A stretch of DNA of 60,641 nt from Mesotoga sp. Brook.08.105.5.1. Its GTDB lineage: Bacteria; Thermotogota; Thermotogae; Petrotogales; Kosmotogaceae. Under the pieces are notes generated by a model, which was not told where the DNA came from, did no database searches, and saw only the letters and a list, made by a program, of their open reading frames with translations. The stretch spans positions 1 to 60,641 of the forward strand of contig NZ_AYTW01000018.1 of NCBI RefSeq assembly GCF_002752635.1, in the 5' to 3' direction. Position numbers and translations under genes: made by a program. Positions 24,808-58,107 of this stretch are shown one piece after another (within the stretch, counting starts at the first letter, position 1; the number at the start of each line of letters is the position of its first letter).

Positions 24808-24854
24808 AGACTGGCCTTTGCGAAGTAAAGACTGGCCACCGAAGGTGACTGGCT
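24808..24854. repeat. Short ACTGGC-linked hairpin array
   Basis: Between the convergent 730-codon gene and cysE. Linker ACTGGC, hairpin CTTTGC-GAA-GTAAAG (one G-T wobble), linker ACTGGC, hairpin CACC-GAA-GGTG, linker ACTGGC. The same hairpins and linkers occur in the larger array at 49880-49972, where the first one is fully paired. Confidence 0.75.
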
Positions 24855-34000: not shown

Positions 34001-34277
34001 CACGCGCAATTCTGTAGTAATCATGACTATTAAGTTTCAGTATGCAACAAAATATAGCTGCTACTTGATTGCACAATAATCGGTTATTCATGGATATTTG
34101 GGCTTCTAGTTTATTCTCGATGGCTGATTCCCTCACGATGGATTTGGTTTTTCTCTTCTTCTCATATAAAGTTAGTTGTGTGCTAGTCTCGCTATGAAAC
34201 AAAATACTTCTCTTTGCTTATTTGATGAAGCCTACAGTTTTCGACTGAATAGTGCGCGATTCAAGGAGGTGCTTCCA
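34001..34277. other. Leader region of the 34.3-kb propeller gene
   Basis: AT-rich 277 bases with no island modules. It should contain the promoter of the following gene, but I see no clear -35/-10 pair. The frame of the next gene is open upstream to 34176, without a ribosome site there. Confidence 0.4.
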
Positions 34278-35099: not shown

Positions 35100-35118
35100 A
35101 ACCTGTCTCTTTTTGCCG

Positions 35119-35151
35119 AGCCTGTTCATTGTCTTTGATGGTGAGCAGGCT
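35119..35151 (+). terminator. Stem-loop between propeller gene and ROK gene
   Basis: Ten-pair stem AGCCTGTTCA / TGAGCAGGCT with one G-T wobble and a 13-base loop, followed by TTTGATT. It lies 20 bases after the propeller stop codon and is a plausible terminator or partial attenuator. The T run is weak. Confidence 0.6.
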
Positions 35152-35179
35152 TTGATTCCGATTTCGAGAGGTGATGGCT

Positions 35180-36319: not shown

Positions 36320-36331
36320 GAGGTGCGTTTT

Positions 36332-37576: not shown

Positions 37577-37621
37577 TCCTAAACCGGGGTCTAGCGGCAA
37601 GCCTGATTCGGAGGTCTTTCA

Positions 37622-38872
37622 ATGGTAGAGCTATCAGATAATTCACTGAGTAAAATTTTAATAGCTGCAGGGTTGTTACTAATAATTCTCTCTTTCTTCC
37701 TGCCCTACGCATCGGGAGAAGTTGTGTATAGGGTTGCTGACTTCTCTTTTTGGGGTGCGTTTAACCTCCTGCCCGTCTATATTGTCCTGGTCTGCCTTTT
37801 TGCACTGTTCCTTGCGATAGGGAAGATCTCATTTCTTCTTGGAACAGCTGTCTCTTTGCTGGTGCTGAACATCACGATCATCTTCATGAGAACTGAATGG
37901 CAGGAGGTTCTAAGATCAAAGTTCTTCCTCGATTTCCTGGGCATTGCCGGTTACGGATGGTGGATCTCTTTGATCGGCAGCGTTGTGGTTCTCGTTGCCG
38001 TCGTAAGACTGATTCCGGATAAGAAGAGGGCTCCGTATCTCTTCATTCTGCCGTCCCTGTTTGGAGTCTGCTTTCTTACTTTCTTCCCGGCAATGTTCGC
38101 TTTCTTTATCTCGTTTCACAGGTGGAATATCCTCGTGCCGAACAAACCATTCGTGGGGCTTGCGAACTTCAGGAAGGCCTTTACAGACGAGTATTTTCTG
38201 AGATCGCTCTGGATAAGCTTTAAGTATGCTCTTGGCGTTATACCCGTGAAAATCGTAATTTCCTTTTTCTTTGCTCTCCTCATATACTCTATCCCGAAGT
38301 TCAAGAGCGTATTCAGAGTGATATACTTTCTTCCGGCCGTGACATCGGTTGTTGCGATAAGCGTTATCTGGACATGGATATATCATCCGTATTACGGAGT
38401 AGCGAATTATCTCATAGGACTCTTCGGGGCGGAGCCGATAAACTGGCTGGGCAATCCCGAAATAGCCATCTGGTCAGTTGTGTTTGTTTCAGTCTGGAGG
38501 TCCGTTGGATACAGCATAATAATCTTCCTGGCCGGGCTGAACAACATACCTAGTATCATTCTGGAAGCCTCGGATATCGACGGAGCAACGCGTTGGCAGA
38601 AGGTCAAGAACATCATAATCCCGCTCATGAAGCCCTCTCTTGTTTTTGTGTTCATAACTTCGACGATCGGCGCGATTCAGGTTTTCACGGAGATATACAT
38701 GATGACGGGAGGAAATGCAGATACGAAAACGGCTGTCTTCTACATCTGGCAGACGGGATTCAATAAGCTACAGATGGGCTATGCTAGTTCAATGTCAATC
38801 GTTCTGTTTGCAATAATACTGGTGATTACTCTTGTTCAGATGAGGGTCACAAAGATTTTCAAGGAGGAGTGA
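37622..38872 (+). CDS. ABC transporter permease (MalF-type) with extra N-terminal membrane domain
   Basis: Predicted 416-residue permease. The last 290 residues are a standard six-helix MalF/UgpA permease (RAPYLFILPSLFGVCFLTFF onward) with the EAA loop in ASDIDGATRWQKVKNIIIP. The first 130 residues are additional and hold four hydrophobic segments (about 12-30, 48-66, 70-89 and 112-130). MalF proteins of some bacteria also have extra N-terminal helices, but this segment is not obviously the same. ATG 37622 has GGAGG upstream. It overlaps the next permease frame slightly. Confidence 0.9.
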   Translation: MVELSDNSLSKILIAAGLLLIILSFFLPYASGEVVYRVADFSFWGAFNLLPVYIVLVCLFALFLAIGKISFLLGTAVSLLVLNITIIFMRTEWQEVLRSKFFLDFLGIAGYGWWISLIGSVVVLVAVVRLIPDKKRAPYLFILPSLFGVCFLTFFPAMFAFFISFHRWNILVPNKPFVGLANFRKAFTDEYFLRSLWISFKYALGVIPVKIVISFFFALLIYSIPKFKSVFRVIYFLPAVTSVVAISVIWTWIYHPYYGVANYLIGLFGAEPINWLGNPEIAIWSVVFVSVWRSVGYSIIIFLAGLNNIPSIILEASDIDGATRWQKVKNIIIPLMKPSLVFVFITSTIGAIQVFTEIYMMTGGNADTKTAVFYIWQTGFNKLQMGYASSMSIVLFAIILVITLVQMRVTKIFKEE

Positions 38873-38874
38873 CC

Positions 38875-39711
38875 TTGAGATCGAAGAGGAAGAGCAACAT
38901 AATTGTATATTCTATTTCATATACTCTCTTGATAGCATTTTCAATAATAATGATTATGCCCTTTGTATGGATGATCTTGTCTACATTCAAAGATCAAAGT
39001 GAGCTTATGAGATTCCCCCCTAAGTTCCTGCCTGACAGATTCACCCTAAAGAATTACGCCGAAGTATTCAGTTCCGTTCCTTTTTTGAGGTATTACTTGA
39101 ACAGCATTCTAATAACTACCGTTGCGGTCACTCTCACATTGCTCACATCCAGCCTCGCCGGCTTTGCCTTTGCAAAATACAGGTTCAGAGGAAGAAACTC
39201 GATTTTCAAGACTCTGCTCGGCGCGATGATGATTCCTTTTCCTGTTACCATAATCCCGCTGTATATCATGATCTACAATCTGGGGCTCGTAGACACCTAC
39301 TTGGCTCTGATTATAACGGGTTCAGTAAGCATCTTCGGCGTATTTCTCATGAGGCAATTCATTGTCACTATTCCCGACGACTTGATAGATGCGGCCAGGA
39401 TAGACGGATGCTCCGAGTTTCAGATCTTTAGAATCATCGTGATTCCAAACATAAGAGCACCACTGTCTGCGCTGGCGATCTTCTCTTTTATGGCGACCTG
39501 GAACGCTTTCCTGTGGCCTCTTCTGGTTGTTAACAACGATGAACACAGGACTGTTCAACTCGGAGTACAGTATTTCACCCAGCGTTACGGGGATTTGATG
39601 CACCTTCAGATCACGGCCGCCGCAATGGCCGTTATACCGATAGTGGTGCTGTATCTCAAATTGCAGAAGCAATTCATCGAGGGTATTACGATGACCGGTT
39701 TGAAGGGCTAG
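38875..39711 (+). CDS. ABC transporter permease (MalG/UgpE-type)
   Basis: Predicted 278-residue permease; TTG 38875 follows AAGGAGGAGTGACC (GTG 38869 is also in frame). Six membrane helices, the conserved N-terminal stretch MIMPFVWMILSTFKDQSELM, the EAA loop (PDDLIDAARIDGCSEFQIFR) and the ending GITMTGLKG are typical. It completes the importer whose ATPase must be encoded elsewhere. It begins right at the stop of the preceding permease gene. Confidence 0.92.
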   Translation: MRSKRKSNIIVYSISYTLLIAFSIIMIMPFVWMILSTFKDQSELMRFPPKFLPDRFTLKNYAEVFSSVPFLRYYLNSILITTVAVTLTLLTSSLAGFAFAKYRFRGRNSIFKTLLGAMMIPFPVTIIPLYIMIYNLGLVDTYLALIITGSVSIFGVFLMRQFIVTIPDDLIDAARIDGCSEFQIFRIIVIPNIRAPLSALAIFSFMATWNAFLWPLLVVNNDEHRTVQLGVQYFTQRYGDLMHLQITAAAMAVIPIVVLYLKLQKQFIEGITMTGLKG

Positions 39712-39724
39712 TAGGGGTGGTAAT

Positions 39725-40825
39725 ATGAAAAAGCTCTCGACTCTCTTTATGCTTTTAGTATTCTTTTCTTCTGTTTTTCTCTCGCTGGAAAGCAGTAGAC
39801 CTGAGAATATCGTCATCCTGATTTGTGACGGGATGGGTTTTAACCATCTATACATATCGGAACTGGTAACTGGAGAAGTCATGGGAAGCCACAGTCCCGT
39901 AGTCGGTATCGGCAGAAATGAGGCTCTAGATAATCTTGTAACCGACTCGGCTGCCGCCGCAACCGCGTTTTTTTCCGGTGTGAAGACACTGACGGGGTAT
40001 CTTGGCATGAATGCATTAGGAGAAGAAGTGAAGACGCTGGCGGATATCCTGAAAGACAAGGGTTGGTGGCTCGGCCTGGTTACAAACACACGTTACTACG
40101 ACGCCACTCCGGCAGCCCTTTACGCTCATGCGCAAAGGAAGGAAACGGATGTAATTACAGACTTTCTAATGGAAAGTCCCCTCGATTTGTTCTTTGCCGG
40201 TGGTCTTGAAGAGCTGGGAATCAATCCCTTTACTCAGAAACCGACGCCAAGAAGCAGAATACACGAACTCATAGACAGCGGCTACAGGGTTCTTGGACTG
40301 AATTTCGAGGAGATTGGATCTCCGGATTCCGAAATGCTGAAGGGAACCGTTGCCCTTGTAACCATGGGAGACAAAAGCTTTGAGAATGAATTGATTCCCG
40401 GTGAGCCCACTCTCTTGGAAATGGTCGAAAGGGCTTTAGCTGTATTCATGCAGGAAGAGAGAAACAAGCTACTCGTCATTGAGGCCGGCAGAATTGACGA
40501 TGCTTCTCATGTCAACGATTCAGAGGCCGTGCTGGCCGAACTGGCTGCCTTCAGGGACGTACTCTCTTATTTGCTTTCACAGCTCTCTTTGGAAAGCGAT
40601 CTATTGATCGTGCTTTCAGACCACGAGACCGGAGGAGTCGCGGTGCCTTATGGCAAACCCGATGGTGACTTTTCCTTGAGCTGGTCGAGTAACGACCACA
40701 CTGCTGCCTATGTGCCTATAATTGCCTACGGCAAAGGATCGCATGTCTTCACGGGATTTTACCATTTGAAGGAGATTCCTCGAAAGATCTGCGGACTATT
40801 GGATGTGATTATATGCGCAGAATAG
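39725..40825 (+). CDS. Secreted alkaline phosphatase
   Basis: Predicted 366-residue exported phosphomonoesterase of the PhoA superfamily. Signal peptide about 1-20 (LSTLFMLLVFFSSVFLSLES). All key residues can be matched: Asp35 (ICDGMG), nucleophile Ser75 (VTDSAAAATA), Asp126/Thr128 (YYDATPA), Glu253, Asp258 and His262 (EAGRIDDASH), Asp299-His300 (LSDHETGG) and His325 (SNDHTAAY). It is shorter than E. coli PhoA (about 450), with the insertions missing. It follows the permease by 13 bases and overlaps the next gene by 13, placing it in the import operon. It probably removes phosphate from a substrate outside the membrane before uptake. Confidence 0.92.
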   Translation: MKKLSTLFMLLVFFSSVFLSLESSRPENIVILICDGMGFNHLYISELVTGEVMGSHSPVVGIGRNEALDNLVTDSAAAATAFFSGVKTLTGYLGMNALGEEVKTLADILKDKGWWLGLVTNTRYYDATPAALYAHAQRKETDVITDFLMESPLDLFFAGGLEELGINPFTQKPTPRSRIHELIDSGYRVLGLNFEEIGSPDSEMLKGTVALVTMGDKSFENELIPGEPTLLEMVERALAVFMQEERNKLLVIEAGRIDDASHVNDSEAVLAELAAFRDVLSYLLSQLSLESDLLIVLSDHETGGVAVPYGKPDGDFSLSWSSNDHTAAYVPIIAYGKGSHVFTGFYHLKEIPRKICGLLDVIICAE

Positions 40826-41580
40826 TTTTTTGCTTTATGTTTTCAATATTCCTTGGAGGGACTCTGATGGGAACATCTCTGACTGTCATGACCTACAACA
40901 TAAGGCACGGATTGGGAATAGACGGTGTCCTGGATTTTTCCAGAGTTGTCGAGACCATAAGGGAAGTAGATCCAGATATTCTTATTCTCAATGAAGTCGA
41001 TCAGGAAAATCCGAGGAGCGCAGGACTGAGACAGGCAGAGATTATTGCCAAGGAACTCAACATGAGCTACTTCTTCAGTCTGGCGGAGGGCAGGAGCAAC
41101 TACGGCAACGCTGTTCTCAGTAAATTCCCGATAACGGCCGAATTTGGTTTTGTGCTCCCGAGACCAGAATGGATGCTTGCCGTGGATAGAGGTTGTTCCG
41201 CAATCGTCACAGAGATCGAGGGCCGGGAAGTCCTGGTGATGGGCACGCATCTCGGTCTCGGCGGGATCATGGAAATCCAGACGGAACTCAGAAAGATTCT
41301 CGAGGTGTATCTTGAGCACGAAGAGATTCCGGCGATTATTGCCGGCGATCTCAACGCCGAGTGGTATGATCTGCAGTACGGTGTCCCCGAGTTTTTTAAC
41401 CACTTCAATTCGGTGAATCATGCGCTTGACAAGAGTCTTCATACGATACCGGCAGATAGACCGGGCCGGCAGATTGATTATATCTTCGTGAATCACTATT
41501 TCGAGATCGTCGATGCGTTCACTGTAGCTTCATACGCTTCGGATCATCTGCCCGTCGTTTCGAGGCTGGTCCTGAAATGA
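40813..41580 (+). CDS. Endonuclease/exonuclease/phosphatase (EEP) family enzyme, probably secreted
   Basis: Predicted 255-residue metal-dependent phosphoesterase. Catalytic positions: Asn29 (TYNIRHG), Glu61 (NEVD), His146 (GTHLG), Asp179 and Asn181 (AGDLNA), Asp222 (IDYIFV), Asp244-His245 (SDHLP). The family includes DNases, sphingomyelinases and inositol-polyphosphate phosphatases; the short form here resembles the phosphodiesterase/hydrolase members rather than nucleases. From ATG 40813 it has a hydrophobic export signal (IVFCFMFSIFLGGTLMG). A second ATG at 40867 has a stronger ribosome site (GGAGGG) and would give a cytoplasmic form, so the location is not certain. It overlaps the genes on both sides. 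Confidence 0.88.
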   Translation: MRRIVFCFMFSIFLGGTLMGTSLTVMTYNIRHGLGIDGVLDFSRVVETIREVDPDILILNEVDQENPRSAGLRQAEIIAKELNMSYFFSLAEGRSNYGNAVLSKFPITAEFGFVLPRPEWMLAVDRGCSAIVTEIEGREVLVMGTHLGLGGIMEIQTELRKILEVYLEHEEIPAIIAGDLNAEWYDLQYGVPEFFNHFNSVNHALDKSLHTIPADRPGRQIDYIFVNHYFEIVDAFTVASYASDHLPVVSRLVLK

Positions 41581-42686
41581 AGAATATCCCTCTCCTCTTC
41601 GTTACTATCGATTCGCTTGGTCCGGAGGTGTTGAAGAAGGCCAGGACTCCTTTCCTGGATAGTGTTGCCAAGACTGGTTCCGTGGTGAGGAATATGAGAT
41701 CGTGTTTTCCTACACTTACCACACCCATGATGAGCACCATATTGACGGGTGTATATCCCGAAAAACACGGCATATACTCCAACACTATCCTGAACAGAGA
41801 AGAGATGAGAGTGGAGGGTAGACTCAGAGATCTCAAAAGAGCGCCAATAACCGACTGTTTATACGAAAACAACTACACCATCCTCTCGATACAGCATTTC
41901 ATGCTTCAGGGAAGAAAGGGAGTGAAGCATGTCCAGGTTGACGGAAACAGAAGCAATGCAATACGGAAGGCGCTAACAAAGGAGAGTAAAGAAAAGAAGT
42001 ATGACGCTATCTTCTGCCTCTATCAGTCTCTGGATAGTGCGGGGCATAGATACGGACCTCTTCACCACAAGACGATAAGAGAATTGGAAGAGATAGATGG
42101 CGAGTTGAAGCTTTTAGCCGACTTTCTTGAAGAGACATTTGGAGAATTCGTTATAGTCATTAGTTCCGATCACTCCATGTCATTGGCCGAAAATCCTACG
42201 GATCTTGATCTAGGTGAAGTTATTGCCAGGATCGGTCTCGAAGCCGAACTTGGTAAGGAAGGAAAGAGGGTTTCTAAAGAGACTGACATTCTTATGCTCA
42301 AATACCCAACCGTAAACATCTACACTCTGACGGAAAAAGCAATGAATAGGACAGCTCTGCTCGTGGATGCTCTGAGGAAAATCAGCGTAACAGATAGAGT
42401 CTATACAAAAGAAGAAATGAAGAAGTTGCACAACCCCGAGTATGCTGACATCGCCTTCTGTTTGAAAAGAGGATATTCAAACTCATTGAAGTCGAGAAGG
42501 CCCGGGTCTTTTTTCGGATATCACGGAACTTTCCACGAGGAGCCCTCCGTGTTCATGTTTAGAGATATTCACAAGACAAAGAACTGTGTAGAGAGAGGTA
42601 CTCTAGTCGACATTACGCCAACAACCCTCGATTTACTTAACATAAAATCATCTGTCGATTTCGATGGAATTTCACTGAAGAAATGA
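41577..42686 (+). CDS. Type I phosphodiesterase/nucleotide pyrophosphatase family protein
   Basis: Predicted 369-residue enzyme of the alkaline-phosphatase superfamily, NPP branch, without a signal peptide. Metal and catalytic residues: Asp12 (TIDSLGP), nucleophile Thr48 in FPTLTTP, the following TGVYPEKHGI signature, Asp153/His157 (SLDSAGHRYG), Asp198-His199 (SSDHS) and His316 (GYHGTFHE). It should cleave a phosphodiester or phosphomonoester in the cytoplasm. It overlaps the EEP gene by four bases (ATGA). Confidence 0.88.
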   Translation: MKNIPLLFVTIDSLGPEVLKKARTPFLDSVAKTGSVVRNMRSCFPTLTTPMMSTILTGVYPEKHGIYSNTILNREEMRVEGRLRDLKRAPITDCLYENNYTILSIQHFMLQGRKGVKHVQVDGNRSNAIRKALTKESKEKKYDAIFCLYQSLDSAGHRYGPLHHKTIRELEEIDGELKLLADFLEETFGEFVIVISSDHSMSLAENPTDLDLGEVIARIGLEAELGKEGKRVSKETDILMLKYPTVNIYTLTEKAMNRTALLVDALRKISVTDRVYTKEEMKKLHNPEYADIAFCLKRGYSNSLKSRRPGSFFGYHGTFHEEPSVFMFRDIHKTKNCVERGTLVDITPTTLDLLNIKSSVDFDGISLKK

Positions 42687-42696
42687 GGTTTGAAAA

Positions 42697-43461
42697 TTGA
42701 ATCTGACAAAACTTGATTATCATCTGCACACAAGCTATTCAGACGGAGAGATGACTTTTTCCCGGCTTCTTGAAGCTTTGGAAGGCAATGTAAGTGTATG
42801 TGGCGTGACTGATCACTTTGAGTTAAACCATCCATCCAGCATAGAATTCACAAAAGACTATCTTGAGGCCTTCGGAGCATTCAAAGAAAGCGCCAGGAGG
42901 CTCGGCATCTCCGCTCATCTCGGCGTGGAAACCGGGCTCGGGAAGAGCGGCATACTACTCCCTTTTATGATGGGCGAAATAGAGTACATCATTGCGAGTC
43001 TTCACAGAGTTCCGCTAGAGGGAACAAACAGTGAAGATTACTGGCAAGCTTACAAAGGTATCATTGCCGAAAATGCACGAAGAGGAGGCTTTCAGATTCT
43101 TGGGCACGTCGAGGGCTATCTCCCGCTTCTACCTCTTCTTGATCACGATCCGGGATTCGACAAGAAGAGGGAGATTGAACGGCAGATCATTCACAAGTAC
43201 TTCACGTTTGACTGGTACTCGCGATTGGCAAAGGATCTCGAGGCAAACGATATTGCACTCGAAATACATGAGCCATCAAAAACGCCGCGATTAGAAGTTC
43301 TGGATATTATGAAACGATCGGGAGTTGCTTTCTCCTACGGAACAGATTCCCACATACCTGAGCAGGTTTCCAAGAGGAGCTATCTGAAAAGAGTCATCCA
43401 GGAACTCGATCTGAAGGAAAGTGATTTTCTCGATATCGAGACGATTAACTTGAAAATATAG
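42697..43461 (+). CDS. PHP-domain phosphatase (histidinol-phosphatase-like)
   Basis: Predicted 254-residue metal-dependent phosphoesterase of the PHP superfamily. Motifs in order: DYHLHTSYSDG (motif I), TDHFE (II), GVETG, SLHR and GHVE (metal ligands), and YGTDSH near the C-terminus. TTG 42697 follows GAGGTTTGAAAA. The fold is that of HisK-type histidinol-phosphatases, but no histidine genes are near, and in this locus it more likely dephosphorylates an imported sugar or polyol phosphate. It starts ten bases after the preceding stop. Confidence 0.85.
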   Translation: MNLTKLDYHLHTSYSDGEMTFSRLLEALEGNVSVCGVTDHFELNHPSSIEFTKDYLEAFGAFKESARRLGISAHLGVETGLGKSGILLPFMMGEIEYIIASLHRVPLEGTNSEDYWQAYKGIIAENARRGGFQILGHVEGYLPLLPLLDHDPGFDKKREIERQIIHKYFTFDWYSRLAKDLEANDIALEIHEPSKTPRLEVLDIMKRSGVAFSYGTDSHIPEQVSKRSYLKRVIQELDLKESDFLDIETINLKI

Positions 43462-43482
43462 AGTATTTCGGGAGGAACTTGT

Positions 43483-44493
43483 ATGACAAACGTTGGGATT
43501 ATCGGTTGTGGAATGATGGGAAAGGTTCATTCCATTGCGTACAGCAGCCTGCAAGACGTCAATGTGAAAGCAGTAGCGAGTCTCTCAAGGGAACAGACTC
43601 TGGAATGTGCAAGACTCACCTCTTCAAAAGCATCCACTGTGGAGGAGATACTCACCGATGACGAAATAGAGGTAGTCAGTATCTGTACACCTACGGATAC
43701 ACACAGGGATCTTGTGGTGGAAGCAGCAAGAAACAGGAAGCATGTTTTCTGCGAAAAACCAATAGCTCGTACTCTCAAAGACGCTCTAGAAATGGTTGAG
43801 GTTTGCAAGCAAAACAGCGTTCTGCTGGGTGTGAATCATGTAGTGAGATTCTTTGACTCTTACTCTAGGGCAAAGAGCCTTATGGAAGACGGAGCGATAG
43901 GCACGGTGGTCATGGCAAGGATGTATCGCGGTGGTGTCTTTCCAAAGCACGGCTGGAACAATTGGTTCGACGAACTCGCTAGAAGCGGCGGAGTTCTTCT
44001 TGATCTTTCCATTCACGACTTCGACTTCTTGAGAACGGTCCTGGGAAAAGTAGAGTCCATAACCGCAAGAAGCGTGAAAAACACTCCTTCTCATCCAGGC
44101 AGAAACAGAGACCATGCCATAGCTGTCGTCAAATTCGCAAACGGTTCGCTGGCACATGTCGAGGGCAGCTGGGCAGAGCCGGAAAACGCTCCTTCGAAAT
44201 TCACAACTTCTTTCGAATTCGTGGGTAGAGATGGAATGATAACCTACGACAGCGATGAGGATTTCACTATTAGGGTGCAGACTGCGTCTAAGGATCTCCC
44301 GTCTTTCTCAAAGAGCACCCCCACAGCCAATGATCCTTATGGATTACACATACAGAAGTTCATAGAAGCGGTGAAAGAAGAAAGAAAGGTTCCCGTTGAT
44401 GGTAATGAGGCTATTGAGGCGTTGAAGATCTCGCTGGCCGCCAACCGATCTGCAGAAAGCGGGAGACCTGTGAAGCTCCTGGAGGTGGTGTAG
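43483..44493 (+). CDS. Gfo/Idh/MocA family oxidoreductase 1
   Basis: Predicted 336-residue NAD(P)-dependent dehydrogenase of the family that includes myo-inositol 2-dehydrogenase and glucose-fructose oxidoreductase. Nucleotide-binding GIIGCGMMGKVH at residues 5-16, EKP with Lys92, and the catalytic Asp174/His178 pair (LLDLSIHDFD) are present. The start ATG 43483 has GGGAGG upstream. It is followed without a gap by a second family member. It most likely oxidises the imported sugar or polyol. Confidence 0.9.
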   Translation: MTNVGIIGCGMMGKVHSIAYSSLQDVNVKAVASLSREQTLECARLTSSKASTVEEILTDDEIEVVSICTPTDTHRDLVVEAARNRKHVFCEKPIARTLKDALEMVEVCKQNSVLLGVNHVVRFFDSYSRAKSLMEDGAIGTVVMARMYRGGVFPKHGWNNWFDELARSGGVLLDLSIHDFDFLRTVLGKVESITARSVKNTPSHPGRNRDHAIAVVKFANGSLAHVEGSWAEPENAPSKFTTSFEFVGRDGMITYDSDEDFTIRVQTASKDLPSFSKSTPTANDPYGLHIQKFIEAVKEERKVPVDGNEAIEALKISLAANRSAESGRPVKLLEVV

Positions 44494-45471
44494 GTGTTCA
44501 GGATTGGGGTTCTTGGAATAGCCCACACGCACGGATACAGCTATATAAGGCAGATTCAGTCTCTCTCAGAAACAAGCATTACGGGTGTATTTGATCAAGA
44601 TTCTTCTAGAAGCGCAAAGACCTCGAATCTCTTCGGCATAGAACGCTTTGACGATCCTCTGAAGCTAATTGAAAACTCGGATGGGGTCGTAGTTACTTCC
44701 GAAAACTCATTCCATAAGCAATATGCGGAGCTTGCAATGATTAATGGCAAACACGTGCTGTGTGAAAAACCCATTGCCACAACTGAAGAAGACGCGAGAT
44801 CGATGCTGCAGACGGCGAGAGAAAACAACGTCGTCCTTCAGATGGCCTTCCCCGTTAGATACGCTCCGTCGATTCAGCAGGCAAAGAAGGAAATAGAAAC
44901 CGGCAGGCTCGGCAGAATCCTCTCGGTCTCGGCTACAAATCATGGAAGAATGCCCGGAGGATGGTTCGTGGATGAGAAGCTTTCCGGCGGAGGGGCGGTT
45001 ATGGATCATACCGTTCACGTTGTGGATATTATCCGCTGGCTACTAGATGTTGAGATTGAAGAGGTATCGGCCGAATACGCCAGACTCATCTACGACATCC
45101 CAGTTGAAGACTGTGGCCTCCTCCTGCTAGGTCTTTCTAACGATTCCTTCATGAGTCTCGACTGCAGCTGGTCAAGACCTGAAGCCTATCCTTACTGGGG
45201 AGATGTCACTCTCAATCTTGTCGGTACAGACGGTTCGCTCAAGATAAGCGCCTTTGATGCGAAGCTGAGAGTCTTCTCAAACAAGAGAGGAGTCTTCTGG
45301 GAGAATTTCGGAGACAGTTTCGACAGAGCGCTGGTTAAGGAATTCGTTGATTCTGTAGTCGAGAAAAGAGAGCCTTTGACCTCAGGAGAAGATGGGCTTG
45401 AAGCTCTAAGAGTGGCTCTAGCAGCATATGAAAGCGGAAGAACACATGAACCTATTCAAGTTAATCATTAG
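44494..45471 (+). CDS. Gfo/Idh/MocA family oxidoreductase 2
   Basis: Predicted 325-residue dehydrogenase of the same family as its neighbour; GTG 44494 directly follows the preceding stop codon, with GGAGG upstream. EKP (CEKPIATT) and the catalytic region (AVMDHTVHVVDII) are present. The usual Gly-rich dinucleotide motif is changed to GVLGIAHTHGYSY, with two His and only part of the glycines, so cofactor binding may differ. The pair may carry out successive steps, for example oxidation and then epimerisation or reduction, on the same substrate. Confidence 0.88.
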   Translation: MFRIGVLGIAHTHGYSYIRQIQSLSETSITGVFDQDSSRSAKTSNLFGIERFDDPLKLIENSDGVVVTSENSFHKQYAELAMINGKHVLCEKPIATTEEDARSMLQTARENNVVLQMAFPVRYAPSIQQAKKEIETGRLGRILSVSATNHGRMPGGWFVDEKLSGGGAVMDHTVHVVDIIRWLLDVEIEEVSAEYARLIYDIPVEDCGLLLLGLSNDSFMSLDCSWSRPEAYPYWGDVTLNLVGTDGSLKISAFDAKLRVFSNKRGVFWENFGDSFDRALVKEFVDSVVEKREPLTSGEDGLEALRVALAAYESGRTHEPIQVNH

Positions 45472-45512
45472 CAGCACCCCATTATGAAAGACGACTAAAG
45501 GTGGTGAAAACT

Positions 45513-48500
45513 TTGAAAGGTAAACGAACATTGCTCGTTTTGGCAATCGCACTCATGAGCATCATGACTTTTGGTCAGATAAAAGTGCAGATGTTGCCAT
45601 TTTGCTCGAGTGGAATAGAGAGGATGCCGTGGCTTCACGACGACATTCTTTACTTCGCCGGGACAAACTACGATATCTACTACACAACGCTTGAAAACGG
45701 AGAATGGGCTGAACCACAGTGGCTTCCGGGCGATATCAATACATCGGAGTACGAGATTAACCCCTGTGTGATAGAAAATGACGGAGTGTTGGTTATGTAT
45801 TTTGGTAGATACTCGGCCGATACTGACTATGATTTCTACAGATCGGTATTTGATGAAGAAAAGGGTGGCTGGGAAGAAGGAACTCTAGTTGCTGAACTCA
45901 GCACGGATAAGAAGGAATGGGATATATGGGTGAACTCAGACGAGACTATCGCATATTTCACGTCGGGAGGCACCTTCAACGGAAAGGAGCCTATCGGAGG
46001 AAGAGATATTTGGAGATCTGAATCAATCGACGGGAAATGGTCATCGCCAGAGAATCTCAGCTTTCTTAACACCGGCGGCGATGAATGGTCGGTATTCCTT
46101 GCTCCTGACGGTTCTATATGGTTTGATTCGGCAAGGGATGACTCAATCGGAGGCTACGATATTTATCGCTGGGACCCTTACACCAGGAGTATAGAGCATC
46201 CTAGAGAGCAAATGAATACATTTCTCGACGAAAGAAGTCTGTGGACCGATGGACAGATACTGTATTTTTCGGGATTGAACAGACCTGATGGTGCGGGCAG
46301 CTACGACATCTTCACATTATTATCTCCTCAAGAAAGGCAAGTGAAAAAAGAAGCTATTGCCGAAAGCACAGACCCGATAACCGTTACTATCAATGATATT
46401 CGACAGAGATCCGAAGGTAGGTACTTGTTTCTAGACAACATCGTTGAGGTTGAAGGGATAGCAATGGTTAGTTCAGGCCTCTGGCACGACTCGGCTAATT
46501 ACTTCGCTCTGACGGACAAGAGCGCCGGTATCCTCATCTATGCTCAAGGTTTCAAGGAGCCGCTCGTAGAAAAAGGTGATCTTGTACGAGTAAAGGGAAC
46601 ACTCACCACGGTCGGCTATACAACAGATGTAAACAGCCTTGTCATAAGACCAGCCTCTCCTGATGATATTGAGATAATCAGAAAAGGAGAGACATTGCCG
46701 GATCCTGCGATCATATTTACAGATTCTGCAAAGAGCCAGCTTAGAAATCTCGAAGGTTCGTTGGTGATGATTTTCGGGAAGATAAGCGCCTACGACAATG
46801 AAACAATCACCAGGGGATTCTGGTTGACTGGACCGTCAGACCGTGATTTCGACAGCGTATCTTCTGGAATGAGAGTGAAGTTCTATGACTATGCCGGCAT
46901 AGACATATCTGCTCTTGGCGATGGAAGCTTCGTTGCAGTACAGGGAGTCCTGATCCAGGATAATGAAGGGGAGTTCTATGTCAGACCCACCATTGACGAA
47001 GATATTCGTGAACAGACAGAAAACAGGATCTTGTTCTTAACTACAATTACAAGAAAGGACCTACTCACTCCGACAGAGGAAGAACCTGAAACCACAAAGA
47101 AAGAAGAGACGAGAGATCTCGTACTTCCTGAGAACGTGGAAGCCATAACTCAGCTGTCATCGTCCGATAATGATTTCTTTTCTTCTAACATTGCTGGGGC
47201 GTCAAATGGAAAACAGGTTTTTGCTAGCCTATACAAGGAAAAGGGAACAAGAACCAAAAACTATCCGCCTGCAATCTATGAACTCGTTCAGGGAAACGTG
47301 TCAAGCAAGATACCCTTCCCGGGGGAAGCCGAATTCCCTTACCTCAAGGACAATGTGCTGCTCTTTGCAGGAAGAATCTTGCCTGATGATCAAAACGCTG
47401 ACTGGAAGATATATTCATATGACGCAGCAACCAAAGAAATCAGGACTCTGACATCGGAGTCATATGACCAGATTGAACCCGTAATCTCTCCCAAGAAGGA
47501 CTTCTTGCTTTACTCGGAAAGAAGAGATGGCAAATGGTTTGTTGTGAAACAGGATTTGTCGTCCAGTGAGAGGACGACTGTCGCTGAGAATGCGAGGTCA
47601 CCTACATTATCCCCTACAGGTAACGATCTTGCCTTCCAGCACTGGAACGGAAAAGACTGGGACATAGTGGCTTTCAATATGAGAACCGGTAAGACAACTG
47701 GAATTCTCAGCAGTTCATTCAACGAATTCTCTCCGGTATGGTCACCCCATGGTACAAAGCTTTCATTTGTTGCCGATTACAGAGGAGAAGTCGAAGTCTT
47801 CATCATGGATCTCTTCGACTATACGATTACTGCAGCAACGAAGGACATTTTCTTGACCACGAATCCATTCTGGCTCGATGAAAGTACACTGGGTTTCACA
47901 ATGAAGACAAATCTCGGATGGAATATCGTTAAGACAAGCACCTCGCTGAAGGAAAAGCCTTCATCTGAGAGCATTTCTGCTGAAGAGAAATTCATCGTTT
48001 CTCCGCGATTCGCTTTCCCATATCTCAGTGATAATCGCATTCTTGAGGTAATAACAAAGGAAGGTTATTCACAGCAAAGAGCAAGACTAATGGGCAGAAC
48101 GGGAAACGCATATGAATTATCGCAGATCGCTGAACACACGTACGTAATTCCAGATCGAATTACTGAAGGTCTTTATTCCCTCGAGGTTCTTGCAGCGAGT
48201 TCCGGGGTAGTTTACAGGCAGCTGGAAGAAAATGCTGTCAGAGTAGGGTCTCTTGATGAATCCTTTACCATCGTCCATCTTACCGATCCACATCTCGACC
48301 TGCTAAGCAAGCCGGAGAATATGCTCCTGTTCGAGAGACTGCTGAACGAGATCAGGGCAGAGAGCCCCGATCTCATGCTGATAACAGGCGATCTTTCCAG
48401 TTCCGCCCTTGCTTACACAACTGACTGGGAATTCATAAAGGAGAAGACCATTGAATATTGTGATTTTCCCGTGTTTATTGTTCCGGGTAATCACGATACA

Positions 48501-48986
48501 CAAAGATCAGGCAGGATAAATGGGATGGAATTGTGGGAAGAGTTATTTGGGCCTTGTTACTACAGCTTCGAGTGGGGTTCATGGCACTTCTTGGGCCTAA
48601 ATACGGCCGATTCAGAGTATGGATTTGTGAGCGGAGTAGTGTCTGAAGAACAAATGGAATGGATAACAGAAGAATTGAAGAGAATAGGAAGCGAGAAAAT
48701 CATACTCTTTGGCCATCACAACTTCTACGATGACAGATGGATCTTTTTTGAGGAGACTGAACAGAGACGAGAGCTGCTTGATCTCTTCACTAGGAGCAAC
48801 GTAGCATTGGCTCTTTTTGGTCATAGACATAGCGATGCGATCGATTATTCACTTAACACTCTTTCACTCACCACGAAGAGGGCAGTGGAAACTGACGGCA
48901 AACTGGCATACAGAAGAATAGTTGTAGAAGAAGGACTAATCATCGAACTTGTAGAAGTCGAGCCGAAGGGCTCGTCGATTTTCTAG
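45513..48986 (+). CDS. Secreted multidomain metallophosphoesterase
   Basis: Predicted 1157-residue exported protein (TTG 45513 behind AAAGGTGG; GTG 45501 and 45504 are also in frame). Signal peptide to about residue 21 (TLLVLAIALMSIMTFGQ). Domains: propeller of about 260 residues paralogous to the gene at 34278; two OB-fold-like domains (about 290-505; NIVEVEGIAMVSSGLWHDSA, LVRVKGTLT); TolB/PD40 propeller (about 555-800; SPTLSPTGNDLAFQHWNGKD); a linker; calcineurin-like metallophosphoesterase (about 915-1140). The last has all five motifs: TDPHLD, TGDLSS, GNHD, FGHHN and FGHRH. It probably hydrolyses a phosphate ester outside the cell while the other domains bind polymer or envelope. It begins 41 bases after the oxidoreductase gene and ends the locus. 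Confidence 0.9.
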   Translation: MKGKRTLLVLAIALMSIMTFGQIKVQMLPFCSSGIERMPWLHDDILYFAGTNYDIYYTTLENGEWAEPQWLPGDINTSEYEINPCVIENDGVLVMYFGRYSADTDYDFYRSVFDEEKGGWEEGTLVAELSTDKKEWDIWVNSDETIAYFTSGGTFNGKEPIGGRDIWRSESIDGKWSSPENLSFLNTGGDEWSVFLAPDGSIWFDSARDDSIGGYDIYRWDPYTRSIEHPREQMNTFLDERSLWTDGQILYFSGLNRPDGAGSYDIFTLLSPQERQVKKEAIAESTDPITVTINDIRQRSEGRYLFLDNIVEVEGIAMVSSGLWHDSANYFALTDKSAGILIYAQGFKEPLVEKGDLVRVKGTLTTVGYTTDVNSLVIRPASPDDIEIIRKGETLPDPAIIFTDSAKSQLRNLEGSLVMIFGKISAYDNETITRGFWLTGPSDRDFDSVSSGMRVKFYDYAGIDISALGDGSFVAVQGVLIQDNEGEFYVRPTIDEDIREQTENRILFLTTITRKDLLTPTEEEPETTKKEETRDLVLPENVEAITQLSSSDNDFFSSNIAGASNGKQVFASLYKEKGTRTKNYPPAIYELVQGNVSSKIPFPGEAEFPYLKDNVLLFAGRILPDDQNADWKIYSYDAATKEIRTLTSESYDQIEPVISPKKDFLLYSERRDGKWFVVKQDLSSSERTTVAENARSPTLSPTGNDLAFQHWNGKDWDIVAFNMRTGKTTGILSSSFNEFSPVWSPHGTKLSFVADYRGEVEVFIMDLFDYTITAATKDIFLTTNPFWLDESTLGFTMKTNLGWNIVKTSTSLKEKPSSESISAEEKFIVSPRFAFPYLSDNRILEVITKEGYSQQRARLMGRTGNAYELSQIAEHTYVIPDRITEGLYSLEVLAASSGVVYRQLEENAVRVGSLDESFTIVHLTDPHLDLLSKPENMLLFERLLNEIRAESPDLMLITGDLSSSALAYTTDWEFIKEKTIEYCDFPVFIVPGNHDTQRSGRINGMELWEELFGPCYYSFEWGSWHFLGLNTADSEYGFVSGVVSEEQMEWITEELKRIGSEKIILFGHHNFYDDRWIFFEETEQRRELLDLFTRSNVALALFGHRHSDAIDYSLNTLSLTTKRAVETDGKLAYRRIVVEEGLIIELVEVEPKGSSIF

Positions 48987-49652
48987 CAGCTGCAAGTACT
49001 ACAAGATGCAACTGAAAAGAATGAACGGTTATCCGTAATCGCTTAGCCATTCTCCAACGGAGCGAAAGCGAACCTAGAAAGCGAGAAGACGCTTTGAGTT
49101 TGAGATGAAGCTTCGCTTCGAGAAAGACCATATTCGAGACTACGAAGAACAAGGAGAGAAAGCAGATCCCTTGCAATTGCACTGAACAGGAGACCCCAAA
49201 CAGGAGTATTTTGGGGCAGGCTTTCAGGGCGGGCTCTACGGGATGACCAAAGCGAGCGGATTTAGGAGCAGCTTTACGGGGATGAAAGCCATTTCTCACT
49301 TTCAGTAGCTGGCGTGTACCTGGCCAGGATCTCGATCTTTGAAACAGTTGCAAGTGACAAGTTGCGAGTTGAATAAGAAACGGTTATCCGTTATCGGTTC
49401 ACCGTTCTCCGAGCAGAGCTTCAAGACCTATCAAGCTCTTTGGATGATGATCTTAGGTCCTCCTTGAGGGAGAAGGGCCACGAAGTGGCGGAGGTGTCTG
49501 TTTCAAAGAAGAGCATGGAGAGCACAAGAGGAGGAGAGAGTACGAGAAACAGGAGAGAGTTCTTGTCTTCTCGTGAGCGCAGTGAACGTCTCGACAGTGC
49601 TCTTTCCTTAAGAAAAAGGTTCTCGGGTTTGCTTTCAAAGTCGGCTCTAAAC

Positions 49653-49760
49653 AGCGTCCAGCGGGGCCTTGATCTTAAGCGCATAGCGGCTCTTCACAGC
49701 GTTCAGCGGGGCCTTGATCTTAAGCGCATAGCGGCTCTTCACAGCGTTCAGCGGGTTCAC
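49653..49760. repeat. 45-base tandem repeat with AGCGnnCAGCGG motifs
   Basis: Two nearly exact 45-base units (49653-49697 and 49698-49742) plus the start of a third. Each unit holds two AGCG(2 nt)(C/A)(A/T)GCGG motifs about 24 bases apart. The same motif, with spacers of about 20-25 bases, recurs in the other islands (about 363-405, 7635-7685, 13204-13285, 33220-33260). The unit is a multiple of three and stays open in one frame, but has no ribosome site. Confidence 0.8.
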
Positions 49761-49879: not shown

Positions 49880-49972
49880 CCGCGAAGCGGAACTGGCCTT
49901 TGCGAAGCAAAGACTGGCCAGGCGAAGCCTGACTGGCCACCGAAGGTGACTGGCTTGCGTAAGCAGACTGGC
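49880..49972. repeat. ACTGGC-linked mini-hairpin array
   Basis: Five tandem hairpins joined by ACTGGC (first linker AACTGGC): CCGC-GAA-GCGG (49880-49890), CTTTGC-GAA-GCAAAG (49898-49912), CAGGC-GAA-GCCTG (49919-49931), CACC-GAA-GGTG (49938-49948) and a shorter TGC-GTAA-GCA (49956-49965). The GAA loop and linker are constant, arms are 4-6 bases and different each time, yet paired. Unit lengths are 17-21 bases. Confidence 0.88.
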
Positions 49973-50290
49973 TTTTCTCTCGCTTTCTTGTGAGCGCAGC
50001 GAATGTCTCGACAATGCTCTTTCTCGATTGATCTTATCGGAGGACGGGTCCTTGCTCTTGGACGGCTGACGGAGGACTTCTCATCAAATCGTTCAGCGGA
50101 TCTATGACTCGAGATCCCAATCAGTTGCCCTGAACAGGATCACGTCAGAGCAGGCTCTACGGGATGACAGCCGTTTTTTATGTGATTCTGACATAATAAC
50201 GGTCAGGATCTCGGTTCTCTCGTGAGCGCAGCGACCGTCTCTACCAGCTCTTTCTCGATGCTTCTTATTGGTCTCGCAAAGCCGAAACTG

Positions 50291-50423
50291 GTCTGTGCGA
50301 ACAGACAGGCTTCAAAATCGCCTCCTGCCGAAGGCAGCCTTGCGTCCCCGGATGCTTCTCCGGGCATTGCGACCTGGCGAAGCCAGCCTTGCGTCCGCCG
50401 ATGTTCTTTCGGCGCCTTGCGTC
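50291..50423. repeat. Hairpin-cassette array C
   Basis: GTCTGT-GCGA-ACAGAC (50291-50306) and then four cassettes with C[CA]TTGCG[TA]C linkers: CTGCC-GAA-GGCAG (50325-50337), CCCGG-ATGCTTCT-CCGGG (50347-50364), CTGGC-GAA-GCCAG (50374-50386) and CGCCG-ATGTTCTTT-CGGCG (50396-50414). All are perfectly paired. Loops alternate between GAA and an ATG(C/T)TTCT-like 8-9-mer. The CCCGG cassette is not in arrays A and B. Confidence 0.88.
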
Positions 50424-50556
50424 TAATTCCAGCAGTGACTGACTTTTCACTCGCCTTCTCCGTGAGCGTAGCGAACGTCTCGAAAGTGTTTTTTCTCAAT
50501 TGAGTCGTCGGACGCCAGATGTTATTTCCCTTGTAAGGCTCACGAAGAACGGTTCT

Positions 50557-51684
50557 TCACAGCTTCACATTTGTGAAGAGTTCTTCTATACTTTGGCGTC
50601 TGCGGATAAGTTTGACATAATCACCATCGACGAGTACTTCTGCGGGCAGCGGCATACCATTGTAATTGTTTGCCATAGAAAAGCCGTAGGCACCGGCGTT
50701 TTCGAATACGATTGCCGTACCTGGTATAGGCACTTCGAGCTTCCGGCCTCTTGCAAGTATGTCGCCGCTTTCGCAAAGAGGACCGACAACATCGGCAGTT
50801 GCCGTCTTCTTGGTGCCGGAGAGGACTATAACGCCGTGATGAGCATCATATAAGGCAGGTCTTATCAGTGCATTCATCCCTGCATCGGTAACGATAAAGA
50901 TTTTTTCCGAGGGTTTAACACTCACTACTGAAGTCACGAGGTATCCTGCCGGACCGATGATGAATCTACCCAGCTCTGAAATCAGTTTCCCATTGAAGTC
51001 AGAGAACATTCCCGAGACGGCCGCCCGCAACTTTTCTATATCAAGCTCTTCGCCTTCATAGTTAATACCCCAGCCCCCGCCGAGATCGATGTGCTTGAAA
51101 CCGAATTGCTTAGCACATTCGAGAACTTTGGAATAGGCGTCAACAAATGGTTCTACTTCGGTGATTTGAGATCCAATGTGAAGATGTAGGCCATCGATCC
51201 TGTCGGCCACCGTCTCGACCTTTTCGATTGGAACTCCGAATTTGTGGGCTTTGAGTCCTGTCGAGATATGTGGGTGAGTGTGCGCGTCAACATCCGGATT
51301 GACTCTTAGAAGCTTCACGACATCTATCCCATCCCATAGAGGCAGTTCCTGCAGCGAGTCGACGCAGACAGTGTCAACACCCTGATTTGTGAAATGCACA
51401 ATATCTCCATGGGTCTTTCCGTTACCATTCCAGAGAATTCGCTTCATGCCGGCCATTTTCGATGCGAGGAGCTCACCTCTTGAAACAACATCCGCACCAA
51501 TGCCTTCTTCTGCCATTATCTTTAGAAGAGCGGGATTGCTGTTTGCCTTCAACGCAAAGACTATCTCTGCATCCAGCCCCTCGAAAACCCTCTTTGCTTT
51601 GTCGATTCTCTTTCTTATCTTTTCTGCATCGTATACATATAGCGGCGTACCGAATTCACCAGCAAGCTTCTGAAAATCAATCAT
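50557..51684 (-). CDS. lysA: Diaminopimelate decarboxylase
   Basis: Predicted 375-residue PLP enzyme, last step of lysine synthesis (meso-DAP to lysine). PLP Lys lies in IVFALKANSNPALLK. HLHIGSQI, DLGGGWGI and the C-terminal LCESGDILARGRKLEVP and ENAGAYGFSMANNYN are family signatures. Start ATG 51684 has GGAGGT upstream and directly follows the stop of the aminotransferase gene; the frame is open four codons further to TTG 51696. Last gene of the riboswitch-controlled lysine operon. Confidence 0.95.
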   Translation of the reverse strand: MIDFQKLAGEFGTPLYVYDAEKIRKRIDKAKRVFEGLDAEIVFALKANSNPALLKIMAEEGIGADVVSRGELLASKMAGMKRILWNGNGKTHGDIVHFTNQGVDTVCVDSLQELPLWDGIDVVKLLRVNPDVDAHTHPHISTGLKAHKFGVPIEKVETVADRIDGLHLHIGSQITEVEPFVDAYSKVLECAKQFGFKHIDLGGGWGINYEGEELDIEKLRAAVSGMFSDFNGKLISELGRFIIGPAGYLVTSVVSVKPSEKIFIVTDAGMNALIRPALYDAHHGVIVLSGTKKTATADVVGPLCESGDILARGRKLEVPIPGTAIVFENAGAYGFSMANNYNGMPLPAEVLVDGDYVKLIRRRQSIEELFTNVKL

Positions 51685-51685
51685 C

Positions 51686-52783
51686 TCAACCTCCAAAATT
51701 CAGCCTTTCCGTTATCTCATCAATCTCTTCAGACCTGATATTAAGCGCTGGCAAAAACCTTACGCTCCCTCCAGTTACATTGAGCAAGACCTTTCTTTCA
51801 AAGGCAAGGCCTTTCACCCCGTTAGGGTTTTCGGTCGTGACTCCTATCATTAGACCCTTACCTCGAACTCCCCTGGCCCAAGGAAGACTCTTGAGGTTTT
51901 GCATAAGACGCGCTCCATTTATTCTAACACTTTCGAGAAGGGCTGAATTCATTCTAGACACAACTGAGAGCCCTGCTGCAAGGCTGAGAGGGTTCGGAGC
52001 AAATGTTGAGCCGTGATCTCCGAGAGAAAACGGTGATAGCTTTCTGAAGACAGTTGCGCCAAGAGGCAGGCCGCCTCCAACGGCTTTTCCCAGTATTACA
52101 ATATCCGGTTCCAATCCGTAATTCCGATAGCCAAAGTATTCGCCTGTTCTACAAAGGCCTGACTGAATCTCATCGGCGACCACTAGAAAGCCCTTCTCCT
52201 TCCTGAGTACTTCAATCGTTTCGATCAGTTCGGAAGGATACAAGTAGACTCCGCTGTTTCCCTGTATCGATTCTACAAAGACGGCGGCGATTTCATTTTC
52301 CTTGACCGATTCAGAAAATGCCTCCGCATTCTTGGGAAGAAAGAGGACGTCGGGGAGAAGCGGTTCGAAAGGCCTTCGCAGTATTTCACTATGTGTCAAA
52401 GAGAGAGCGCCGATGGTTCGCCCATGAAAGTTACCTTCAAAGGAAATCATTTTCCCCTTTCTCAACTTCCTTACAGCTTTGATCGCAGCTTCTGTGGCCT
52501 CGGTGCCGGAGTTTGAAAAATACACCTCGCCGCTGGAGTTGACAAATTTCAGGAGACTCTCACTAAGCTTTTCGGCATCATCGTCGAGAAAGTAGTTTGA
52601 TGTGTGAGAATACCTTCCCATCTTCCTGGAGACTGCTTCAATCGTTGCTTCATCCGTATGACCGAAAGCGAGTACTCCTATTCCTGCAAATGTGTCGATG
52701 AACTCGCCCCTGTCAGTATTGATTCTTATTCCGTGTGCACTCTTTATCTCGAGAGGAAATGGTGAGTATACGTTTGAAAGCAT
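51686..52783 (-). CDS. Class III aminotransferase (ArgD-like; probable N-acetyl-DAP aminotransferase)
   Basis: Predicted 365-residue PLP-dependent aminotransferase of the ArgD/AstC family. Conserved FSNSGTEATEAAIK, GNFHGRTIGALSLT, the Asp in VVADEIQSGLCRTG and the PLP Lys in ILGKAVGGGLPLGA are present. By position between lysC and lysA it most likely transaminates N-acetyl-2-amino-6-oxopimelate in the acetylase branch of lysine synthesis, rather than acetylornithine. ATG 52783 is the best start; the frame is open to TTG 52813, inside lysC. Specificity is inferred from context only. Confidence 0.88.
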   Translation of the reverse strand: MLSNVYSPFPLEIKSAHGIRINTDRGEFIDTFAGIGVLAFGHTDEATIEAVSRKMGRYSHTSNYFLDDDAEKLSESLLKFVNSSGEVYFSNSGTEATEAAIKAVRKLRKGKMISFEGNFHGRTIGALSLTHSEILRRPFEPLLPDVLFLPKNAEAFSESVKENEIAAVFVESIQGNSGVYLYPSELIETIEVLRKEKGFLVVADEIQSGLCRTGEYFGYRNYGLEPDIVILGKAVGGGLPLGATVFRKLSPFSLGDHGSTFAPNPLSLAAGLSVVSRMNSALLESVRINGARLMQNLKSLPWARGVRGKGLMIGVTTENPNGVKGLAFERKVLLNVTGGSVRFLPALNIRSEEIDEITERLNFGG

Positions 52784-57940: not shown

Positions 57941-58107
57941 AAACCCACCGGCTCTCCACGCAATCTTCGTGACAGTCATACAGGTCTTTCCTGTATGCCC
58001 AGAAGTCGGTCGCTGGGGCTTCCGCCTTCTTCGGCACCCTCGCCTTTCGATCCGTTCCAATCCCCTGATGAACGTCTACTGATCTTGGGTGCTCCTCCGT
58101 TGGGTAA
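57941..58107 (-). promoter_or_regulatory. Lysine riboswitch (L-box) of the asd-dap-lys operon
   Basis: The minus strand carries the conserved L-box elements in order: CCCAACGGAGGAGC (P1/5' side), AAGATCAGTAGACG, ATCAGGGGAT, GAAAGGCGAGGGTGCCGAAG, and then ACTGTCACGAAGATTGC with GGAGAGCCGGTGGGTT closing P1. This matches, element by element, the crystallised T. maritima asd aptamer as I remember it. Variable hairpins such as ACAGGAAAGACCTGT (P4) are intact. Binding of lysine should end transcription of the whole operon at the terminator at 57876-57913. Confidence 0.93.

Follow-up and report, generated by a model that had tools for sequence, protein, structure and literature searches.

REPs with an unpaired CGTC tag (or TGTC/CCTC) at one end of the stem have been described, among them the CGTC-3 family of Mesotoga prima and Kosmotoga olearia, and they occur without a dedicated flanking transposase (Di Nocera et al. 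2013, PMC3733652). Their stems are 8-9 bp long with AT in the first and second position, their loops measure 4-5 nt, with other, unusual loops being noted for M. prima and K. olearia, and a 3-nt unpaired tail, mostly CCA, is present; head-to-head dimers dominate and clusters are rare (PMC3733652). RepRanger counts 1,814 putative REPs in M. prima, and the motifs of the Thermotogota are unlike those of other phyla (PMC12306157).

The window analyzed here, i.e., the whole stretch of 60,641 nucleotides from Mesotoga sp. Brook.08.105.5.1, contains three islands in which small hairpin cassettes are strung together head-to-tail. As in the CGTC REPs, the CGTC tag is located directly 5' of an intergenic hairpin (in 72% of the fully paired cassettes), the copy number is high, the genus is the same and there is no dedicated transposase; the long-loop cassettes of the arrays also share the loop RYGNTNYT with the GTC-AT REPs of the genus. 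The array stems, on the other hand, are 5-6 bp long and GC-rich, the first pair being C-G in 261 of 262 cases, whereas the REP stems are 8-9 bp long and AT-first; the array loops measure 3 or 8-9 nt, C[CA]TTG stands in place of CCA as the tail, some of the tags are CGAC, and the units run head-to-tail, whereas the REPs are single units or head-to-head dimers. The first-pass annotation had recognized no named family here. This can be maintained only in part: the long-loop cassettes are tied to the CGTC REPs by their tag and loop, but head-to-tail arrays with interchangeable 5-bp stems are absent from the published description (Di Nocera et al. 2013, PMC3733652). The arrays, the linker grammar and the cassette lexicon were not found in the part of the RepRanger text searched, and the array cassettes may be among the M. 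prima REPs counted by RepRanger (PMC12306157).

Several other modular repeats show partial similarities. The BIMEs, which are enterobacterial REP mosaics, also combine several palindrome types with recurring linkers at intergenic sites and in variable composition, but BIME units alternate, whereas those of the arrays all point in one direction, the stem lexicon of the arrays is larger, and their tag is CGTC instead of GTAG. The neisserial dRS3 forms the constant part flanking variable repeats, whereas in the arrays the constant part is the 9-base linker and it is the palindromes that vary. In both cases, palindromes of the CGTC class occur in large clusters, dRS3 repeats being counted among the CGTC-1 REPs (PMC3733652). 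The pneumococcal BOX elements, which have been judged largely parasitic, are likewise intergenic and modular, their constant end modules enclosing internal hairpin modules that vary in number (PMC3049150), but they repeat a single type of boxB module, whereas the arrays use about 14 interchangeable types.

The feature is real and sharply defined, and we take it to be a CGTC-type REP mosaic rather than a new class of RNA. We consider it probable (roughly 70%) that the islands belong with the REP/BIME type of mosaic palindromic repeat DNA, in which the cassettes are drawn from a fixed lexicon.

Layout of the islands in the window

The three islands occupy positions 13447-13579, 33721-33826, and 50291-50423 of the forward strand, exactly where the first-pass annotation had placed them. 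As it had also noted, all of them begin with the same GNRA-loop hairpin, GTCTGT-GCGA-ACAGAC (13447-13462, 33721-33736, and 50291-50306), and use the same 9-base linker, C[CA]TTGCG[TA]C, 11 copies of which were located along with 11 cassettes (linkers within 13494-13579, 33768-33826, and 50338-50423). The motif CNTTGCGNC occurs 14 times in the window, 11 of these copies being inside the islands, as compared with 5.65 +/- 2.36 expected; none of 100 shuffles reached 14. The cassette plus linker units are 22, 27, or 28 nt long, none of these lengths being a multiple of three, in line with the earlier remark on this point. Every cassette in the window islands and in the other arrays read has the same orientation.

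In island 1, the GNRA hairpin is followed by a short-loop CTGCC cassette, a long-loop CTGGC cassette, a long-loop CGTCG/CGGCG cassette with one T.G mismatch, and a short-loop CCGCC/TGCGG cassette forming four of its five pairs. Island 2 is island 1 minus the long-loop CTGGC cassette: it carries short-loop CTGCC, long-loop CGTCG with the same T.G mismatch, and short-loop CCGCC. Cassettes have thus been gained, lost and reordered between islands, as previously proposed, and simple copying of one repeat does not describe them. The series in island 3 is different. It consists of the short-loop cassette CTGCC-GAA-GGCAG (50325-50337), the linker CCTTGCGTC (50338-50346), composed of the tail C, TTG and the CGTC tag, the cassette CCCGG-ATGCTTCT-CCGGG with a long RYGNTNYT loop (50347-50364), the linker CATTGCGAC (50365-50373), the cassette CTGGC-GAA-GCCAG (50374-50386), another copy of CCTTGCGTC (50387-50395), the cassette CGCCG-ATGTTCTTT-CGGCG (50396-50414) and a terminal CCTTGCGTC (50415-50423), after which comes the right flank TAATTCCAGCAGTGACTG common to other islands. 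The islands are flanked by direct copies of GTGAGCGYAGCGA elements; around island 3 the flanking direct repeats are GTGAGCGCAGCGA on the left (50222-50234, in an element of about 46 bp) and GTGAGCGTAGCGA on the right (50462-50474), all on the forward strand.

A second hairpin dialect adjoins the islands. It consists of GAA-type hairpins connected by the linker ACTGGC and has a separate lexicon (CACCGAAGGTG, CTCGCCGAAGGCGAG, CTTTGCGAAGCAAAG and others) which includes AT-containing stems. In the intergenic region of island 3, it is represented on the forward strand by CTTTGCGAAGCAAAG, CAGGCGAAGCCTG, CACCGAAGGTG and other units at 49892-49972, and the GNRA hairpin of island 3 is probably a degenerate last unit of this neighboring dialect. 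Full pairing was observed in 117 of its 148 units (17.7 after swapping), and it is present in most of the genomes of the genus (control 0). The dialect also occurs at 24810-24853, and the same intergenic region near island 3 contains a 45-bp tandem repeat, CGGCTCTTCACAGCGTTCAGCGGGGCCTTGATCTTAAGCGCATAG, at 49642-49731, among many dispersed repeat motifs.

Between islands 2 and 3, a 15-kb gene block (34028-49058) is located elsewhere in genomes G007 and G006, and the genes bordering it (one ending at 32813 and a lysA-like gene at 50557-51696) are neighbors in G003, G007, and G008. The block at 34028-49058 has therefore been relocated, and each of its ends carries a repeat island.

Pairing of the arms and relation to single REPs

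The arms had been reported to be always paired. In the window, the stems of 8 of the 11 cassettes are complementary throughout and the other three carry one mismatch, so that "always" is too strong; the pairing itself holds well beyond the window. In about 780 kb of DNA from this genome and its relatives, units were delimited by their linkers alone, without requiring pairing, and the 3' halves were swapped between units as a control. Complete 5/5 pairing was found in 267 of the 367 units (mean 38.6, maximum 60 after swapping) and at least 4/5 pairing in 311.

The first-pass annotation suggested that the arms keep changing while remaining complementary. Instead, they are drawn from a closed repertoire, about 14 hairpin types that recur in six genomes. 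When the type was assigned from the 5' arm alone, the 3' arm sites were seldom found to change within a type, while loop positions 4, 6, and 7 were highly variable: among these paralogues, comparison with the consensus yields about 15% change at each loop site as against about 2.5% at each stem site, i.e., about sixfold less. The changes within stems amount to 73 single changes, one compensated double change and one uncompensated double change. Ongoing covariation of the arms is not borne out by these figures; the fixed set and the near absence of compensation within types indicate that the pairing is inherited together with the cassette. The lower variation of stems than of loops could also be compatible with selection on the stems.

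Paired arms with differing sequences could also be accounted for by template switching during replication, which perfects imperfect palindromes and creates new paired arms. The fact that the lexicon is fixed and common to several species speaks against this idea, as does the fact that mutated stems remain unpaired; in G003, for example, CCAGG..CCGGG is present where the sister genome has CCCGG..CCGGG. We find this explanation scarcely credible.

Tagged hairpins also occur singly in the genus. GTC-AT stems of 8-9 bp were found 211 times in the sampled DNA, and the loop RYGNTNYT is present in 72 of the 122 unconditioned 9-nt REP loops and in 187 of the 233 long loops of the arrays. When only the tag and the loop were required, 97 of 154 sequences paired at 7/8 positions or more (26.8 after swapping), with several stem sequences, while the control search with the loop written backward gave 0 of 31. 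The pattern of single tagged REPs was detected in nine of the 10 genomes of the genus, array-less ones among them (140 in G001 and 42 in G004; control 0), and elsewhere in the phylum in a single genome. The tag, the loop and the pairing are therefore held constant, and the stem sequence is free. Judging from these sequences, the arrays look like a tandem, short-stemmed, stem-shuffled derivative of the CGTC REPs occurring in part of the genus, and the single CGTC-tagged REPs of the genus are the most likely source of the long-loop cassettes. Since the array stems are 5-6 bp long and not 8-9 bp and AT-first, it is the tag and the loop that argue for this descent, which does not cover the GAA-loop cassettes, as they share the tag and not the loop. 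One genus thus uses the same tag and loop in two settings, in long-stem REPs standing singly and in tandem short-stem arrays, and with the constant parts (tag, loop, and pairing) and the joining site (TTGCG) exposed in this way, the mechanism becomes testable.

Linker joints, turnover and divergence

Fully paired cassettes are directly preceded by the tag CGTC (188 cases) or CGAC (74 cases). The first base of the linker tracks the preceding hairpin (A after CCCGG and CCGGC, C after CTGGC and CGCCG), and its last variable base tracks the following one (A before CTGGG and short CTGGC, T before CCCGG, CCGGC, and CACTG; before long CTGGC it is mostly A). The mutual information between the linker end bases and the adjacent type amounts to 0.571 and 0.544 bits, no shuffle exceeding 0.15, and the conditional values on the proper side are 0.456 and 0.447, as compared with cross-terms of 0.17. 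Since the end bases follow the adjacent hairpin types, the cassettes carry their own flanks and are joined inside TTGCG; 53 distinct adjacencies were counted among 18 cassette labels, and a third linker, ATCACTTC, is intermixed with the TTGCG arrays. In the unit so defined, a CGTC/CGAC tag precedes a hairpin with a short GC stem, its complementary arm and a RYGNTNYT or GAA loop between them, and the tail C[CA]TTG follows. With such cassettes strung head-to-tail, what was first taken to be a constant linker is the tail of one cassette plus the tag of the next. New combinations would be formed by joining cassettes within the common TTGCG core, presumably via a nuclease/ligase-type activity or short-homology recombination, and whole islands would spread or be lost as blocks bounded by the flanking direct repeats.

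Matches to the island sequence were found at about 100 sites of the genome it comes from and in eight of the 10 genomes of the genus. The existence of many arrays beyond the window, which had been anticipated, was confirmed by the two-linker pattern, which gave 116 matches in this genome (control 2) and 101, 41, 26, 18, and 16 in five relatives (control 0-2 over the six). Arrays are therefore present in six of the 10 genomes, and the counts did not rise above background in the remaining four or in 93 genomes from farther away in the phylum. They are not an assembly artefact, since they are present in G003, which is assembled into one 2.97-Mb contig and a second, small one. Two scans of the contigs of other named genomes, a set from which near relatives may be missing, yielded no arrays. 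Spread by phages or plasmids was also considered and was rejected, as searches of 50,697 phage records, 72,556 plasmid records and viral contigs gave no match.

The content of the arrays differs between genomes. Between the two species G003 and G007 (98% identity), one orthologous array has kept its cassette order; in their other arrays, cassettes have been added or removed by indels of 53-570 bp with repeats at their boundaries, and the 53-bp indel fuses the GAAGTGATGC linker to a cassette normally preceded by GACGCAAGGC. In the more distant G000, entirely different cassettes are present at the same site, in the opposite orientation. The units are intergenic in 181 cases and lie within ORFs of at least 150 aa in 29. 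No association with GC skew was detected (27 of 66 islands, p 0.18), and a replication-strand bias such as that of single-strand transposons was discarded.

Among the orthologous stems defined by their linkers, 2.4% of the sites have changed, as compared with 2.6% in other intergenic DNA. With stems defined by their structure, three comparisons, based on few substitutions, gave 2.3, 9.1, and 6.4%, as against 2.6, 10.7, and 10.2% under a neutral expectation corrected for the requirement of one perfect hairpin copy. Before this correction, stem changes between G000 and G003 or G007 were fewer than expected (p 1e-4 and 0.006); this shortfall was discounted, because hairpins were included only if perfect in one genome and the corrected expectation is close to the values observed. 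Although the numbers are small, this pattern fits elements which need pairing while they are being copied and not later. The orthologous loops of G003 and G007 show a divergence of 6.0%, about twice that of other intergenic DNA (2.9%, p 0.009); these fast-diverging loops are perhaps a mutation hot spot or undergo conversion from paralogues.

These data also bear on the proposal that the islands are transcribed and that the string of hairpins serves as a structured RNA, whether a small RNA, an mRNA stabilizer or a terminator. Apart from the low variation of the paralogous stems, it is favored by the presence of local hairpins, including C(UUCG)G on the reverse strand of some cassettes, and by the modest advantage over shuffled sequences which all three islands show when folded as DNA or RNA (z -1.1 to -1.9); since this gain is small, the signal resides in the local hairpins. 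However, no Rfam match was obtained at the islands, stem mismatches of the G.T and A.C types are about equally frequent (11 and 14), so that neither RNA strand is favored, and the orientation relative to the neighboring genes is random (15/12/12/11). With stems diverging almost neutrally and cassette content wholly replaced between species, this proposal, a structured RNA being one of the options put forward in the first-pass annotation, appears very unlikely. We read the arrays instead as mobile or duplicating mosaic DNA which drifts after insertion. The pairing would be kept because copying or mobilization requires a hairpin with the tag and the loop, or copies the cassette whole, and probably not for any use by the host. 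The only Rfam match in the window is a lysine riboswitch (RF00168, 82.5 bits, 57941-58107, minus strand). It immediately precedes a series of ORFs on the minus strand, from 57861 to 50557, with lysA-like and aspartokinase-like genes among them.

Composites in CRISPR repeats and candidate enzymes

In G000, G003, and G007, composites of about 272 bp are located inside CRISPR repeats, at one exact point. One end of the composite is a TTGCG/ATCACTTC hairpin array, and the 15-bp sequence ATACCACTATGGTTC is present on both sides. G000 carries four copies showing 97-99% identity with different spacers between them (locus L070, G000:C59:15401-16933), G003 several (L071/L072, G003:C1:1713524-1714656 and 1736754-1739724), and G007 three (L073, G007:C14:46454-48866); one composite of G003 and G007 is apparently common by descent, having the same neighboring spacers and 99% identity. 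The composites are near the end of the array where the CRISPR repeats degenerate, some of them being in tandem with one core shared. The full composite was found only in the CRISPR arrays of these three genomes, and E-core-E tandems occur in G008 and G002. Unequal crossing-over was rejected as the origin of the copies, as the duplicated spacers expected around them are absent. That composites bearing arrays have entered the CRISPR repeat several times at one and the same site is good evidence of mobility; the product observed would be obtained by integration of a circle via the 15-bp core or by transposition with a 15-bp duplication. These insertions supply precise filled sites, which are usually lacking for REPs.

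It might be argued that the arrays are a dead repeat family which homologous recombination and gene conversion have shuffled and homogenized without any dedicated mobilization. The position of the islands between direct GTGAGCGYAGCGA copies, the repeat-bounded indels, the stability of orthologous arrays at 2% divergence and the fact that no transposase tracks the arrays are all consistent with this account, which we nevertheless consider rather unlikely: the 5-bp joint is short for homologous recombination, which also does not explain near-identical copies at a single CRISPR-repeat site without spacer duplications.

If the mosaic repeats are mobilized, a single-strand enzyme might recognize the tag and hairpin (as postulated: CGTC/CGAC, any GC stem, and a RYGNTNYT or GAA loop), cut at the tag and join cassettes head-to-tail, and this enzyme or a related activity might place the CRISPR composites with their 15-bp duplication; we put this forward as a speculative and quite doubtful scheme. 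To our knowledge, CGTC REPs have no known mobilizer. No GTAG tag was found in the linkers, unlike the GTAG REPs mobilized by RAYTs. Y1 transposases are present in G000, G006, and G007, as well as in G001 and G004, which have no arrays, and no Y1/REP-type transposase occurs in G002, G003, or G008, all three of which bear arrays; the larger Y1 proteins resemble REP-associated transposases below the cut-off (NF047646), and none of the Y1 genes examined is flanked by arrays on both sides. A RAYT was therefore rejected as the present mobilizer, neither co-occurring with the arrays nor being flanked by them on two sides.

Two minor observations were made on transposases. A 1,476-bp insertion with an IS110-family transposase (Pfam Transposase_20 and DEDD_Tnp_IS110), present in G003 (L214:3824-5299; G003:C1 at about 196.8-198.3 kb) and absent in G007, is located about 110 bp from a hairpin array. 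REP-type Y1 genes at L174 (G007:C7:27801), L176 (G000:C19:12186), and L173 (G006:C5:28968) are accompanied, close to one end or to both, by GGGACAGA/GGGGACTGA-like motifs, which recall the GGGGWSAS terminal inverted repeats of TIR-associated tyrosine transposases.
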